From positions 1 to 64,000 of the forward strand of contig JAFZRF010000003.1 in assembly GCA_017620025.1 (NCBI GenBank): a stretch of 64,000 nt of DNA. The letters are read 5' to 3'. The notes under the pieces were generated by a model that made no database searches, was not told the DNA's origin, and saw only the letters and a program-made list of their open reading frames with translations. Of this stretch, positions 4,435-39,986 are shown piece by piece. This stretch comes from Ruminococcus sp. (GTDB lineage Bacteria > Bacillota > Clostridia > Oscillospirales > Ruminococcaceae). Position 1 is the stretch's first letter, and each line of letters begins with the position of its first letter. Made by a program: the position numbers and the translations under genes.

Positions 4435-6114
4435 ATGCTATCAGATATAGAGATCGCTCAGAATGCGAAAATGAAGAAGATAACCGAGATCGCTGCCGAA
4501 CTCGGCATATCGGATGACTGCCTCGAGCCCTACGGCCACTACAAGGCAAAGGTATCGGAGAGCCTTTACTCAAGCCTTGCATTCCGCAATGACGGCAAGC
4601 TGATACTCGTTACAGCAATCAATCCCACTCCTGCCGGTGAGGGAAAGACCACAGTCAGCGTAGGCCTTACCGAGGCTATGGGACGCATCGGCAAGAAGAC
4701 GGTCCTTGCCCTGCGTGAACCGTCTCTCGGCCCGGTATTCGGCATCAAGGGCGGTGCTGCCGGCGGCGGCTATGCACAGGTAGTGCCCATGGAGGACATC
4801 AACCTCCACTTCACAGGCGATATGCACGCAATCACTGCTGCAAACAACCTGCTCTGCGCCATGATAGACAATCATCTCCAGCAGGGAAATACCCTCAGGA
4901 TAGACCAGCGCCGCATCCTCTTCAAGAGATGTCTTGATATGAATGACCGTGCGCTGAGAAATATAATCGTAGGTCTCGGCGGAAAGGCTAACGGCGTTCC
5001 CCGTGAGGACGGCTTCAATATCACCGTTGCCTCAGAGGTAATGGCAATACTCTGCCTTGCCTCCGACCTTGCAGACCTCAAGGAGAGACTCGGAAACATA
5101 CTCGTTGCATACGACCTTGACGGCAAGCCCGTATTCGCCCGTGACCTCGGCTGCACAGGCGCTATGACCGCTCTCCTCAAGGACGCACTCAAGCCGAACC
5201 TTGTACAGACGCTTGAGAACAATCCAGCATTCATACACGGCGGCCCCTTTGCGAACATCGCACACGGCTGCAACTCAGTACGTGCCACCAAGCTCGCACT
5301 CAAGCTCGGTGATTACGTTGTTACCGAGGCAGGCTTCGGTTCCGACCTCGGCGCTGAGAAGTTCTTTGATATCAAGTGCCGCTATGCCGGACTTGTACCC
5401 TCATGCGTAGTTCTTGTAGCTACGATCAGGGCTCTGAAATACAACGGCAAGGTTCCGAAGGAGGATCTCGGAAAGGAGAACCTCTGGGCTCTCGAGAAGG
5501 GCAGCGTGAACCTCCGTACACACATCGAGAATATGCATAAGTACCATGTGCCGGTAGTAGTAGCCATAAACCGCTTTGCCTCCGATACCGACGCCGAGAT
5601 ACAGTTCGTAAAGGATCTCTGCACGGAGATGGGCGTTGAGGTATCCATGTGCGAGGTATTCGCCAAGGGCGGCGAAGGCGGAGTTGACCTTGCTGAGAAG
5701 GTATGCCAGACCATACAGCTCACCGAAGGCGGCGACGAGAGATTCCGTCCGCTGTATTCCACATCCCTCCCGATAAAGGAGAAGATCGAGACTATCGCCC
5801 GTGAGATCTACCGTGCCGACGGTGTTACCTACACCGCTCAGGCAGAGAAGGCCATCAAGGAGATAGAGGCTATCGGCTTCGGGGACCTGCCCGTATGCGT
5901 GGCCAAGACACAGTACTCCCTCTCCGATGACCCGAAGAAGCTGGGCAAGCCGAAGAACTTCACCATCACAGTCCGTGACGCACGTCTCTCCTCCGGTGCA
6001 GGCTTCGTAGTAATCTACACCGGCGAGATACTCACCATGCCCGGACTTCCCAAGGCACCCTCAGCCCTCAACATCGATTGCGATGTGAACGGCTGCATCA
6101 CAGGCCTGTTCTGA
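4435..6114 (+). CDS. fhs: Formate--tetrahydrofolate ligase
   Basis: A cytoplasmic enzyme that joins formate to tetrahydrofolate using ATP, giving 10-formyl-THF for purine synthesis and initiator-tRNA formylation. The 559-aa length is normal. The ATP-binding loop TPAGEGKTT lies at residues 65-73, and [23 protein letters not shown] is the family's signature stretch. The ATG follows GGAGGA closely. tsaE begins two bases after the stop, so the two are cotranscribed. Bacteria often place fhs under a ZTP riboswitch; here the leader is only about 25 bases long, while a ZTP-like aptamer sits before rpsU instead. Confidence 0.98.
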
Positions 6115-32649: not shown

Positions 32650-33018
32650 ATGGCAGTAATAAGCGAAAAGGAAAAGCTTGAAATAATCATCAAGGCTCTT
32701 GACAGTAAGAAGGGCGAGAACATACAAGCTATCAAGGTGGCCGATCTTACGATACTCGCAGACTTCTTCGTAATAGTCAACGGAACGAGCAACACCCATG
32801 TAAGAGCACTTGCCGATGAGGTCGAGTTCCAGCTGTCACAGAAGGGCATCGAGCCCGAACGCAGGGAGTCTGATACAGGCAATACCTGGATAGTACTCGA
32901 TTACGGCGATATCATCGTTCACATCTTCTACAAGGAGACAAGAGAGTTCTACAAGCTTGAGGGACTCTGGGCAGACGGTGAGACAATGGATATAAGCTCG
33001 ATCACAGCTAAGGACTGA
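32650..33018 (+). CDS. rsfS: Ribosomal silencing factor RsfS
   Basis: Binds L14 on the 50S subunit and blocks joining of subunits when nutrients are short. The 122-aa protein has the conserved core ADFFVIVNGTSNTHVRALADEVE and WIVLDYGDIIVHIFYKETREFYKLEGLW. GGAATG lies upstream of the ATG. It belongs to the nadD-yqeK-rsfS-leuS series. Confidence 0.97.
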   Translation: MAVISEKEKLEIIIKALDSKKGENIQAIKVADLTILADFFVIVNGTSNTHVRALADEVEFQLSQKGIEPERRESDTGNTWIVLDYGDIIVHIFYKETREFYKLEGLWADGETMDISSITAKD

Positions 33019-33048: not shown

Positions 33049-35454
33049 ATGAGCAGATATGATTTTAAATCAATAGAACCCAAGTGGCAGAAATACTGGG
33101 ATGAGCACCACAGCTTCGAGGCTTCCGAGGATCACTCCAAGAAGAAGTTCTACGCTCTGGTTGAGTTCCCTTACCCCTCCGGACACGGTATGCACGTAGG
33201 CCATATCAAGGCTTACTCCGGCCTTGAGGTAGTATCCCGCAAGCGCCGCATGGAGGGCTACAACGTAATGTTCCCGATGGGATATGACGCATACGGTCTC
33301 CCGACAGAGAATACCGCTATCAAGGAGAACATCCACCCCCGTCTCGTAACTGACCGCAACATCGAGAAGTTCACCGGACAGCTCCGTACAGTCGGCTTCT
33401 CCTTCGACTGGTCGAGGGTTATCGATACCACAGATGTGAACTACTACAAGTGGACACAGTGGATCTTCCTCAAGATGTTCGAGAACGGCCTTGTATTCCG
33501 TGACAAGACCTCTGTAAACTACTGCCCGAGCTGTAAGGTCGTACTCTCCAACGAGGATTCACAGGGCGGCAAGTGTGATGTCTGCCACAGCGACATCGTA
33601 CAGAAGACCAAGGAGGTATGGTATCTCCGCATCACAGAGTATGCCGACAAGCTCCTTCAGGGACTCGAGGAGGTTGACTACCTTCCGAACGTAAAGCTCC
33701 AGCAGGTAAACTGGATCGGCAAGTCCACAGGTGCATTCGTAAACTTCAGCCTTAAGGAGCAGGACGACAAGCTCCGTATCTATACCACACGTCCGGATAC
33801 TCTCTACGGCGTAACCTTCATGGTAATCGCTCCCGAGCATCCGATCATCCAGAAGTACCGTGACTCCATAGCCAATATCGCAGAGCTCGATGCCTACAAG
33901 GATGAGTGTGCAAAGAAGACTGAGTTTGAGAGAACTCAGCTCGTAAAGGACAAGACAGGCGTAAAGATCAACGGACTCACTGCCATCAATCCCATCACAG
34001 GCAAGGAGATCCCGATATACATATCCGACTACGTAATGATGGGCTACGGTACAGGCGCTATCATGGCTGTTCCTGCACACGATACCCGTGACTACGACTT
34101 CGCAAAGAAGTTCGGCATCGATATCATTGAGGTAATCAAGGGCGGCGATATCTCCAAGGAGGCTTATACCGGCGAGGGCGAGCTCGTCAACTCCGATGTG
34201 CTCAACGGCATCTCCAACAAGAAGGACGCTATCGAGAAGATACTTGCAGTCCTCGAGGAGAAGGGCGTAGGCGAGAAGGGCGTACAGTACAAGATGAAGG
34301 ACTGGGCGTTCAACCGTCAGAGATACTGGGGCGAGCCTATCCCGATCGTACACTGTCCTGACTGCGGCATGGTGGCTGTACCCTATGAGGAGCTTCCTCT
34401 GAGACTGCCCGATGTCGAGAACTTCGAGCCCGGTACAGACGGCGAGAGCCCGCTTGCAAAGATAGACAGCTTCGTGAACTGCAAGTGCCCGAAGTGCGGA
34501 AAGGACGCAAAGCGTGAGACAGATACCATGCCTCAGTGGGCAGGTTCCTCATGGTACTTCCTCCGCTACTGTGATCCCCACAACAACGACGAGTTCGCAG
34601 CACAGGAGAACCTGAAGTACTGGCTCCCCGTTGACTGGTACAACGGCGGTATGGAGCACGTTACCCGTCATATGATCTACAGCCGCTTCTGGCACAAGTT
34701 CCTCTATGACCTCGGTCTCGTACCCACCTCAGAGCCCTATGCAAAGCGTACAGCTCAGGGACTCATCCTCGGACCGGACGGCGAGAAGATGTCAAAGTCA
34801 AGAGGAAACGTAATCGACCCCAACGACGTAGTTGAAGAGTACGGCGCAGACGTTCTCAGACTCTATGTTCTCTTCATGGGCGACTATGAGAAGGCTGCTC
34901 CCTGGAGCGAATCAAGCATCAAGGGCTGCAAGCGCTTCGTAGACAGAGTATGGGGCCTTCAGGATATGCTGACAGAGGGCGATGACTACAGCGAGGCTCT
35001 CCGCAGCGGCTTCCACAAGACGATCAAGAAGGTATCAGAGGATATCGAGGCTATGAAGTTCAATACTGCGATTGCAGCCATGATGAGCCTTATCAACGAT
35101 ATCTATACAGCCGGTACGGTAAACAAGGCTGAGCTCAGCGCATTCTGCACGATGCTCTATCCCTTCGCACCGCATATCTCCGAGGAGATGTACTTTGCAG
35201 CAAACGGCAAGGTGCTCAGTGAGCAGAGCTGGGTAACATACGACGAGGCACTCTGCAAGGACGATACTATCGAGATCGTTGTCCAGATCAACGGCAAGGT
35301 AAGATCCAAGCTTAACATCGCAGTTGACGCTGACAAGGACTCCGTACTTGCAATGGCTATGGATGATGAGAGTGTCAAGAAGGCTGTTGAGGGCAAGACA
35401 ATAGTCAAGCAGATATATGTACCAAATAAACTTGTTAATATTGTTGCAAAATAA
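33049..35454 (+). CDS. leuS: Leucyl-tRNA synthetase
   Basis: Class I aminoacyl-tRNA synthetase charging tRNA-Leu. The 801-aa protein has HVGH (the HIGH motif) at residues 49-52 and KMSKS at 580-584; a zinc-binding CPSCK...CDVCH block; and a CP1 editing domain with TTRPDTLYGVTFMVIAPEHP and the GTGAIMAVPAHDTRDYDF signature. Only 30 bases separate it from rsfS, so there is no T-box leader. No terminator is visible before the rpsU promoter. Confidence 0.98.
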   Translation: MSRYDFKSIEPKWQKYWDEHHSFEASEDHSKKKFYALVEFPYPSGHGMHVGHIKAYSGLEVVSRKRRMEGYNVMFPMGYDAYGLPTENTAIKENIHPRLVTDRNIEKFTGQLRTVGFSFDWSRVIDTTDVNYYKWTQWIFLKMFENGLVFRDKTSVNYCPSCKVVLSNEDSQGGKCDVCHSDIVQKTKEVWYLRITEYADKLLQGLEEVDYLPNVKLQQVNWIGKSTGAFVNFSLKEQDDKLRIYTTRPDTLYGVTFMVIAPEHPIIQKYRDSIANIAELDAYKDECAKKTEFERTQLVKDKTGVKINGLTAINPITGKEIPIYISDYVMMGYGTGAIMAVPAHDTRDYDFAKKFGIDIIEVIKGGDISKEAYTGEGELVNSDVLNGISNKKDAIEKILAVLEEKGVGEKGVQYKMKDWAFNRQRYWGEPIPIVHCPDCGMVAVPYEELPLRLPDVENFEPGTDGESPLAKIDSFVNCKCPKCGKDAKRETDTMPQWAGSSWYFLRYCDPHNNDEFAAQENLKYWLPVDWYNGGMEHVTRHMIYSRFWHKFLYDLGLVPTSEPYAKRTAQGLILGPDGEKMSKSRGNVIDPNDVVEEYGADVLRLYVLFMGDYEKAAPWSESSIKGCKRFVDRVWGLQDMLTEGDDYSEALRSGFHKTIKKVSEDIEAMKFNTAIAAMMSLINDIYTAGTVNKAELSAFCTMLYPFAPHISEEMYFAANGKVLSEQSWVTYDEALCKDDTIEIVVQINGKVRSKLNIAVDADKDSVLAMAMDDESVKKAVEGKTIVKQIYVPNKLVNIVAK

Positions 35455-35481
35455 CGAATTTTTAATTATTTGAAAAACCCC

Positions 35482-35510
35482 TTGACATAATTCGGAGAAT
35501 GTGATAAAAT
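35482..35510 (+). promoter_or_regulatory. Promoter of rpsU
   Basis: TTGACA, 17 bases, TAAAAT inside TGTGATAAAAT. The predicted transcript start near 35517 leaves a leader of about 165 bases in front of rpsU. Confidence 0.85.
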
Positions 35511-35563
35511 ATTAATATATTAGTGTTGCACTGATATGTAATATTATTCGTAAATTATACAAA

Positions 35564-35675
35564 TGGGGTAATGGTGACTGGCGTCAGTGGTCATTCAGAG
35601 CAATCTGGAGACCGAATGACGGTTGGCATATATGCACCGGAGTTAGCTCCGGGAAGCCTCTGTTATAAAGGAGGG
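35564..35675 (+). ncRNA. ZTP (pfl)-like riboswitch in the rpsU leader
   Basis: The two conserved blocks of the ZTP/pfl aptamer are recognisable: TGACTGGCG (35575-35583) and a hairpin GGAG-TTAG-CTCC running into GGGAAGCC (35639-35658). A variable arm between them is a seven-base stem GTCATTC/GAATGAC. TAATGG (35569-35574) can pair with CC and GTTA (35657-35665) as P1 with a bulge. CCTC at 35657-35660 can alternatively pair with GAGG of the ribosome site (35671-35674), suggesting translational control. ZTP riboswitches sense ZMP/ZTP, a signal of low 10-formyl-THF. No terminator stem is seen. Recognised from memory of the consensus. Confidence 0.65.
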
Positions 35676-35682
35676 AAAGATA

Positions 35683-35856
35683 ATGGCAGAAGTACGTGTT
35701 GGCAAGAACGAGTCCTTAGATACCGCACTGAAGAGATTCAAGAGAAGCTGCGCAAAGGACGGAGTAATTGCTGAGGTTCGTAAGAGAGAGCATTACGAAA
35801 AGCCTTCAGTAAAGCGTAAGAAGAAGTCTGAGGCAGCTCGTAAGCGCAAGTATTGA
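35683..35856 (+). CDS. rpsU: 30S ribosomal protein S21
   Basis: A 57-aa basic protein beginning [19 protein letters not shown], followed by [23 protein letters not shown] and a Lys/Arg-rich tail ending AARKRKY. All are typical of S21, which helps the 30S subunit engage Shine-Dalgarno sequences during initiation. AAAGGAGGG is the ribosome site, next to the riboswitch-like leader. It has its own promoter and terminator, so it is a single-gene unit. Confidence 0.97.
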
Positions 35857-35880
35857 TCTTACAGCATAAAAACGTTGATA

Positions 35881-35905
35881 AAAGCGGACCTCGGTCCGCT
35901 TTTTC
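35881..35905 (+). terminator. Terminator of rpsU
   Basis: AAAGCGGAC-CTCG-GTCCGCTTT followed by TTCATTTG, 25 bases after the stop codon. Confidence 0.9.
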
Positions 35906-35929
35906 ATTTGCCTTACACAGGGAGGAAAG

Positions 35930-36451
35930 ATGATTTTCAGTATTACAGCAGCATTCCGAGGAGTAACAGACATAACGCCGGGTGTTCTTGAGCGTATGGG
36001 CGTAAAGGGGCTGATACTCGATATAGACAATACCCTCACGACACATGATAATCCCGTCCCGTCGGAGGGAGTGACGGAATGGCTTGCAGATCTCAGGAAA
36101 AACGGCATTGCCGCCGTAATAGTATCGAACAATAAGGCGCCGAGAGTAAAGCCCTTTGCCGACCTTCTCGGACTTGAGTTCGTATGCGAGGGCGCAAAGC
36201 CGCTGACAAAGGGCTATTCAGAGGCTGCCGGAGTGCTCGGTATGCCGAAGGATCAGATCGCCGCAGTCGGGGACCAGATCTTCACCGACGTTGCCGGAGC
36301 AAACCTTTACGGCATAAAGATGCTGTACGTACAGCCCATCGCAAAGGAACCGAAGAAACAGAGATTCATAAGGTTCAAGCGTGTACTGGAAAAGCCATTC
36401 CTTCCGAAGAAGGTCTACCGCAGGGACCCTGAAAAGGAGAGAAAGATATGA
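35930..36451 (+). CDS. yqeG: YqeG family HAD-IIIA phosphatase
   Basis: A 173-aa HAD-superfamily hydrolase. The nucleophile motif LILDIDNTLTTHD, IVSNNKAPR (motif II Ser/Asn), the motif III Lys in AKPLTKGY and the motif IV acid in VGDQIFTDVAGANLYG are all present. The fungal relative Gep4 dephosphorylates phosphatidylglycerophosphate; the bacterial substrate is unsettled. The basic tail (KPFLPKKVYRRDPEKERK) may bind membrane. GGAGGAAAG precedes the ATG. The stop overlaps aroQ. Confidence 0.92.
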   Translation: MIFSITAAFRGVTDITPGVLERMGVKGLILDIDNTLTTHDNPVPSEGVTEWLADLRKNGIAAVIVSNNKAPRVKPFADLLGLEFVCEGAKPLTKGYSEAAGVLGMPKDQIAAVGDQIFTDVAGANLYGIKMLYVQPIAKEPKKQRFIRFKRVLEKPFLPKKVYRRDPEKERKI

Positions 36452-39636: not shown

Positions 39637-39986
39637 ATGTGAGCAGTCCATACGGCAGCGGGATCGTTCAGGTCACGAGGAAAGTCCGGGCATCACAGAG
39701 CAGGGTAGCTGCTAACGGCAGCCGAGGGCGACCTTAGGGCAAGTGCAACAGAGATATACTGCCTCCGCTTGCGGGGGTGATGGTGGAAAGGCGGGGTAAG
39801 AGCCCACCAGAGTGCGGGAGACCGTACTGCTATGTAAACCCTACCCGATGCAACGTCTATTGGTGTCAGGTATCTTAACGTCTGCTCGGCGGATATCTGG
39901 CAATGACGGCTTGAGCCTTCCGGCGACGGGAGGAGTAGATAAATTGCCGTACACGACAGAACCCGGCTTATCGGTCTGGTCACATT
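39637..39986 (+). ncRNA. rnpB: RNase P RNA
   Basis: The catalytic RNA of RNase P, about 350 bases, which trims tRNA 5' ends. Universally conserved blocks are visible: GAGGAAAGTCCGGGC, the GGGCGACCTTAGGGCAAGTGCAACAGAGA region, GGTAAGAGCCCACC, TGTAAACCC and the 3' AGAACCCGGCTTATCGGTC. P1 is formed by ATGTGAGCAG with CTGGTCACAT at the two ends. The open frame at 39812-40102 is only a by-product. Confidence 0.97.

Follow-up and report, generated by a model that had tools for sequence, protein, structure and literature searches.

Ribosomal protein bS21 is described as joining the 30S subunit last and as affecting the use of Shine–Dalgarno (SD) sequences (PMC9976891). In Flavobacterium, ribosomes without bS21 translate differently, and rpsU, which encodes this protein, is described as the one gene with an obvious SD (PMC9976891). 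Control of bS21 has been described in Flavobacterium and in Francisella (PMC10931766). A second type of related system is the ribosomal-protein leader, 20 of which were presented by Eckert and Weinberg in 2020; ligands are assigned there by an "Only" principle, namely that only one gene is regulated (PMC7247131). Riboswitches are a third, among them the ZTP/pfl class, whose usual targets are purine or one-carbon genes (PMC2864571).

Table 1 of PMC7247131 contains no S21 leader and the main text mentions neither S21 nor rpsU; both terms are likewise absent from the main text of PMC2864571. The Bacillus leader table in PMC4342826 was covered in its rows L10 to L21. No such leader was found for Firmicutes in the open-licence literature, and the leader matches no family of Rfam 15. 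Within the open-licence literature, an rpsU leader of this kind is apparently undescribed.

The rpsU locus

The window—the whole 64,000-nucleotide stretch of a Ruminococcus sp. contig that was analysed—encodes bS21 with 57 amino acids at 35683–35856 on the plus strand (ATG at 35683; Pfam PF01165 Ribosomal_S21, 83.2 bits). It follows leuS (33049–35454), which bears the leucyl editing domain. By its looks, rpsU is a gene of its own, because a promoter-like site lies 5' and a hairpin with a T run lies 3' of it. The former is a putative sigma-70 promoter, TTGACA-17-TAAAAT at 35482–35510 (+), a consensus match only, which agrees with 11 of 12 consensus positions and carries TG before the second hexamer. 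The latter is a GC-rich hairpin followed by a T run at 35880–35904 (+), a probable terminator that is known by eye alone; a pattern scan returned no terminator.

Upstream of leuS and rpsU, the window encodes the ribosome silencing factor RsfS (32650–33018, +), and a bacterial class A RNase P RNA is located at 39640–39986 (+; 258 bits). An ORF of 67 amino acids at 35571–35774 (+) begins in the rpsU leader and overlaps rpsU out of frame, probably by chance.

Architecture of the leader

The leader of rpsU is a real, conserved RNA structure. Covariance model R1, from whose training set the window leader was kept out, matches the whole conserved motif at 35563–35685 (+) with 47.6 bits and an E-value of 1.8e-8 for the genome, and the leader stretch folds at z = −2.57, with 4 of 200 shuffles folding equally well. 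A first-pass annotation of the same DNA had placed a structured leader at nearly the same span, 35564–35675, directly before a gene for S21, and was right in both respects.

Comparison with other Ruminococcus leaders shows a three-way junction, in which P1 is the closing helix, P2 a bulged helix (CUGA...UUAGUAUA), and P3 a variable hairpin. The common plan of the genus leaders runs from a G-rich strand over the CUGACUGA...UUAGUAUAGA helix, the variable hairpin and a AACCUCUG-like strand to AAGGGAGGGAA or similar before the start codon. In the window, where all of these parts lie on the plus strand, the 5' strand of P1, GGGGU at 35565–35569, pairs with GCCUC at 35656–35660 and thereby forms two G–U pairs. 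P2 (35578–35626) consists of CUGG (35578–35581) paired with UUGG (35623–35626), a bulged G, and CGUC (35582–35585) paired with GACG (35618–35621), beyond which it bears a long inner extension. The junction CAUAUAUGCA at 35627–35636 is the best-conserved part between the helices; relatives mostly have UAUAGAUGC at this place, and the letters A, T, and A of its ATA are invariant. P3 is the hairpin CCGGAG-UUAG-CUCCGG at 35637–35652, with stems at 35637–35642 and 35647–35652.

The strand GCCUC at 35656–35660 serves both as the 3' strand of P1 and as an anti-SD, and is the candidate switching strand with two alternative partners: GCCUC is complementary to 35565–35569 and its CCUC (35657–35660) to GAGG (35671–35674) of the SD. 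Across 71 leaders, CCUC is invariant or at least 90% conserved. The SD itself, AAAGGAGGG at 35667–35675 (+), forms a duplex with the 16S tail of −13.1 kcal/mol and ranks 12th in strength against 46 window ORFs. The ranking covers the window and is tilted towards these ORFs, since each was given the best score among several possible starts.

Conservation and covariation in the genus

An rpsU match was obtained in 116 of 125 genus genomes, and upstream DNA was taken from all 116 (30 loci and 86 regions). Parsing succeeded for 112 of these loci, and the unparsed L175, L213, L215, and L217 were nonetheless included in the motif searches. The motif is present at all 116 rpsU neighbourhoods fetched (74 + 42, one of them truncated by a contig end). 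These neighbourhoods were chosen for rpsU, and the whole-genome search with R1 is the independent test: counted from the matches listed, it yields one match below 1e-3 in each of the 116 genomes, and in the nine genus genomes without an rpsU match it yields none as strong as 1e-3. The leader also occurs in the Ruminococcus relatives L036, L038, and L048, one of which is an R. flavefaciens MAG. An occurrence of the motif at other genes was considered and rejected: among the matches listed, the five best weak ones of the genus (28.5 to 23.1 bits) have neither the core nor rpsU, as judged by eye.

Several sets of leaders were used for comparison. A1 holds 71 nonredundant leaders. A2 holds 43 leaders that were chosen for a clear P1 and P2 (44 picked, L199 omitted), trimmed to the motif and aligned with MAFFT. 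A set of 83 leaders combines 74 from the genus, seven allied family loci, and the two named relatives L033 and L042, with all 83 sources matched. In the 83-leader alignment—which was fitted to the model and hence leans to the structure, and whose shuffles carry no correction for relatedness—275 cells show double changes, whereas shuffles average 73.7 and slid controls reach no more than 65. Of the cells, 90.3% are paired against 77.9%, and 16 pairs show double changes against 13.8, a count reached by 18 of 500 shuffles. The MAFFT alignment A2 gives 91 double-change cells against 35.8 in shuffles.

The covariation is carried by P2 and P3. In the 83 leaders, the two helices of P2 are paired to 90.2% and 97.1%, with double changes at two of eight and five of five pairs, respectively, and all eight pairs of P3 have changed on both sides, with 86.8% of cells paired. 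The 5' UTR thus bears a covarying structure, as expected of a ribosomal-protein leader, with little covariation in P1; a consistent place upstream of a ribosomal-protein gene, a further mark of such leaders, is found as well.

P1 and predicted masking of the SD

P1 is the weakest part of the structure. Its outer pair is unpaired in 23 of the 83 rows, and a single double change was seen in all of P1. The consensus folds by RNAalifold depend on what is presented: with RIBOSUM scoring, A2 cut before the SD folds into P1, P2, and P3, and A2 including the SD forms an anti-SD/SD hairpin in place of P1. Default scoring of A2 leaves just three pairs of P1, and A1, with its 71 leaders and no selection for P1, yields P2 and the SD hairpin and neither P1 nor P3.

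Because its 3' strand is nearly invariant, P1 was argued from a run test instead. Within up to 15 bases 5' of P2, 73 of the 83 leaders contain a strand able to form at least five contiguous pairs with the 3' strand, whereas 28% of shuffles do. Runs average 5.29, and the highest mean among 200 shuffles is 4.28; the segments of up to 15 bases were placed by the model. Among relatives, the 5' strand appears as GAGGU, GGGGU, CAGGG, and, with its register shifted, CAGAG; this is the kind of variation that a need for pairing with CUC would give.

Further 5' of P1, a conserved UCUGCU is present in 80 of 112 genus leaders. The junction reads AUAGA in 73 of these 80, and AUAUA in 20 of the 32 leaders without UCUGCU, an association that may be due to descent alone.

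Energies could be compared for 79 of 112 leaders, since the parser misplaced P2 in some rows. For these, the SD-masked hairpin lies a median of 6.0 kcal/mol below the P1 state, with a mean probability of the SD hairpin of 0.94 and of an unpaired SD of 0.04; the window leader forms the SD hairpin with a probability of 0.61. In this energy model, which holds neither tertiary contacts nor folding order, the SD-masked state is predicted to be the lower one without ligand.

Distribution in the family and beyond

Of 396 family genomes, 37 have an R1 match at E ≤ 0.1, eight of them in the genus. Seven belong to two allied genera, lie 5' of rpsU and have a visible core. Fifteen of the other 22 were examined: five stand before rpsU as recognised by pattern and ten do not, and these ten, at 26.5 to 21.2 bits, match mainly in the SD part. 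In most family genera, R1 detects no junction of this kind. When the search was extended to the order (394 genomes) and the class (391 genomes), it gave five weak matches outside the genus (E 1e-4 to 4e-3); these, all outside the family, have no recognisable rpsU and match in the SD part. Searches of more than 40 genomes were run with stricter filters, by which weak relatives may be missed.

On visual inspection, some allied genera seem to have no P3 hairpin. L257, L274, L276, and L286 seem to keep a CUGA...UUAGUAUA-like core and to lack P3, with weak or no model scores, which suggests that P3 is dispensable. The family genome L254, one of the ten whose match does not lie at a recognised rpsU, carries AGGAGGT and then the anti-SD stretch AACCTCTGAAACAAGGGAGGG at 1501–1592, without the P2 core. 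This may be the anti-SD device put to use at a different gene, or a coincidence.

Masking of the SD seems to reach further than the junction. In a sample of about one leader per genus of the family, an anti-SD stretch faces GGGAGG in 80 of 104 leaders, a count that retains the rows of a few start codons misplaced by pattern; four of 108 loci were unparsed, and so were two of nine in a later set. The SD is unpaired with a mean of 0.315 against 0.390 with shuffled upstream sequence (Wilcoxon p = 1.4e-4), a modest effect. Since the anti-SD is this frequent and the SD less accessible than with shuffled sequence, the SD-masking hairpin seems to be widespread in the family, and the competing junction seems to be an addition in Ruminococcus and its allies. 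Control of rpsU in the family would then be layered.

Other genera show a second, longer leader type at rpsU. It contains letters resembling CCTTCACTAT, and a GRCAGAG-like strand lying far away could pair with the same anti-SD strand (L031, L039, L050, L054, L260, L262, L266, L271, L275, L277, L280, and L287). By pattern, it accounts for 7 of 111 parsed family leaders, and most of its pairings are nonsignificant when taken singly (p = 0.01 to 0.52).

A putative translational switch and its alternatives

We propose that the leader is a cis-regulatory two-state translational switch of rpsU, most likely acting in feedback repression by bS21, and would put the probability of this reading at roughly one half. 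In the ON state, the CCUC strand would close the three-way junction of P1, P2, and P3 and leave the SD free; in the OFF state, it would pair with GAGG of the SD and block initiation. The junction might form first during transcription and keep the SD open, because it is transcribed before the SD, and an excess of bS21 might then shift the RNA to the SD-masked state. Sequence comparison supports the structure of P2 and P3, the association with rpsU, and the two exclusive partners of CCUC. The assignment of bS21 as ligand follows solely from the fact that no gene other than rpsU was found downstream of the motif. We therefore read the leader as a new ribosomal-protein leader with bS21 as its presumed ligand. 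A sequence profile of the leader showed no significant likeness to 16S rRNA: E. coli 16S contains GACTGAC, yet the profile matches it no better than chance would (joint p = 0.545, with p = 0.065 for the left block and 0.685 for the right; a comparison of letters alone and with a 16S from outside the host genus). Three genomes were searched for a 16S of the genus, and none was found.

The OFF default as computed would suit an activating ligand just as well as feedback repression, and an activating small molecule is the main rival. A small molecule or ion would bind in the junction GCUGAC ... UAUAGAU, hold P1 and turn on bS21 translation. The conserved junction letters and a three-way junction closed by a P1 that competes with the SD are what such a riboswitch might look like. 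Nevertheless, a riboswitch class is usually found upstream of a number of genes that belong to the same pathway. Here, a ribosomal protein is the one target among the matches examined, and the range is narrow—one genus and a few allied genera—which makes this explanation unlikely. The gene context of the motif offers no ligand candidate. Its bolder form, a new riboswitch class by which Ruminococcus would set its ribosome composition, and hence its SD use, through a metabolic signal acting on bS21 alone, we regard as rather unlikely.

It is improbable that the structure is passive, or sensitive to temperature or magnesium, and does no more than fix a basal rate of translation. In its favour, the SD hairpin seems to occur without the junction in many genera (partly judged by eye), but a static hairpin would need neither a junction whose unpaired letters are conserved nor one strand with two exclusive partners.

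Control by ribosomes that lack bS21, whose anti-SD would open the masked SD better than that of full ribosomes, has its precedent in Flavobacterium (PMC9976891), and by eye, rpsU is often preceded by a strong SD in the family. The SD of rpsU is, however, unexceptional by energy and rank among the window ORFs, and the three-way junction would be left unexplained; we consider this distinctly improbable.

That the leader is a ZTP (pfl) riboswitch, as the first-pass annotation held on the grounds of TGACTGGCG and a hairpin leading into GGGAAGCC, is practically ruled out: the Rfam 15 model RF01750 matches neither the window at gathering (39 bits) nor, at E ≤ 10, the stretch 35440–35930 with permissive filters or the genome (about 76% complete), and the two supposedly conserved blocks occur in 6 and 3 of 112 genus leaders, respectively, and together in two (the window and L134). 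A covariance-model score below threshold had itself been named as a finding against that identity. The elements do lie where they had been reported—TGACTGGCG at 35575–35583, the CCGGAG/CTCCGG hairpin, and GGGAAGCC at 35651–35658, all in the leader of rpsU—and letters and hairpin are all that the leader shares with the ZTP class, as it has no covariance-model match and does not stand 5' of purine or one-carbon genes. In 18 related loci, the leader matches no Rfam family at gathering. The proposed link to one-carbon status is likewise unsupported. The strong matches in the genus sit at rpsU neighbourhoods; fhs is in the window as reported (4435–6114), and no ZTP match at gathering occurs anywhere in it. 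What endures from that annotation is the pairing of CCTC either in P1 or with GAGG, P1 freeing the SD, for which the P1-capable strands argue, and its suggestion that related rpsU leaders be compared for covariation, which P2 and P3 indeed show.

Comparison with known systems

If bS21 feedback through the leader holds true, the switch is a compact and testable RNA, in which one strand has two exclusive partners. It resembles the ribosomal-protein leaders of PMC7247131 in its covarying structure in the 5' UTR, its single ribosomal-protein gene, and the possible masking of the ribosome site. It differs from the 20 leaders of that study, which include none for S21, in that no sequence likeness to E. 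coli 16S rRNA was found, and by protein binding that is putative. With the bS21 autoregulation of Flavobacterium johnsoniae (PMC9976891) it shares the gene and translational control through the SD. There, control is described as ribosome-mediated via one exceptional SD, with no leader structure mentioned, whereas Ruminococcus has a structured leader and an rpsU SD that is strong but ordinary. A genus-wide RNA switch on rpsU would, if true, add to Flavobacterium another example of bS21 dosage control, with a mechanism of a different kind.
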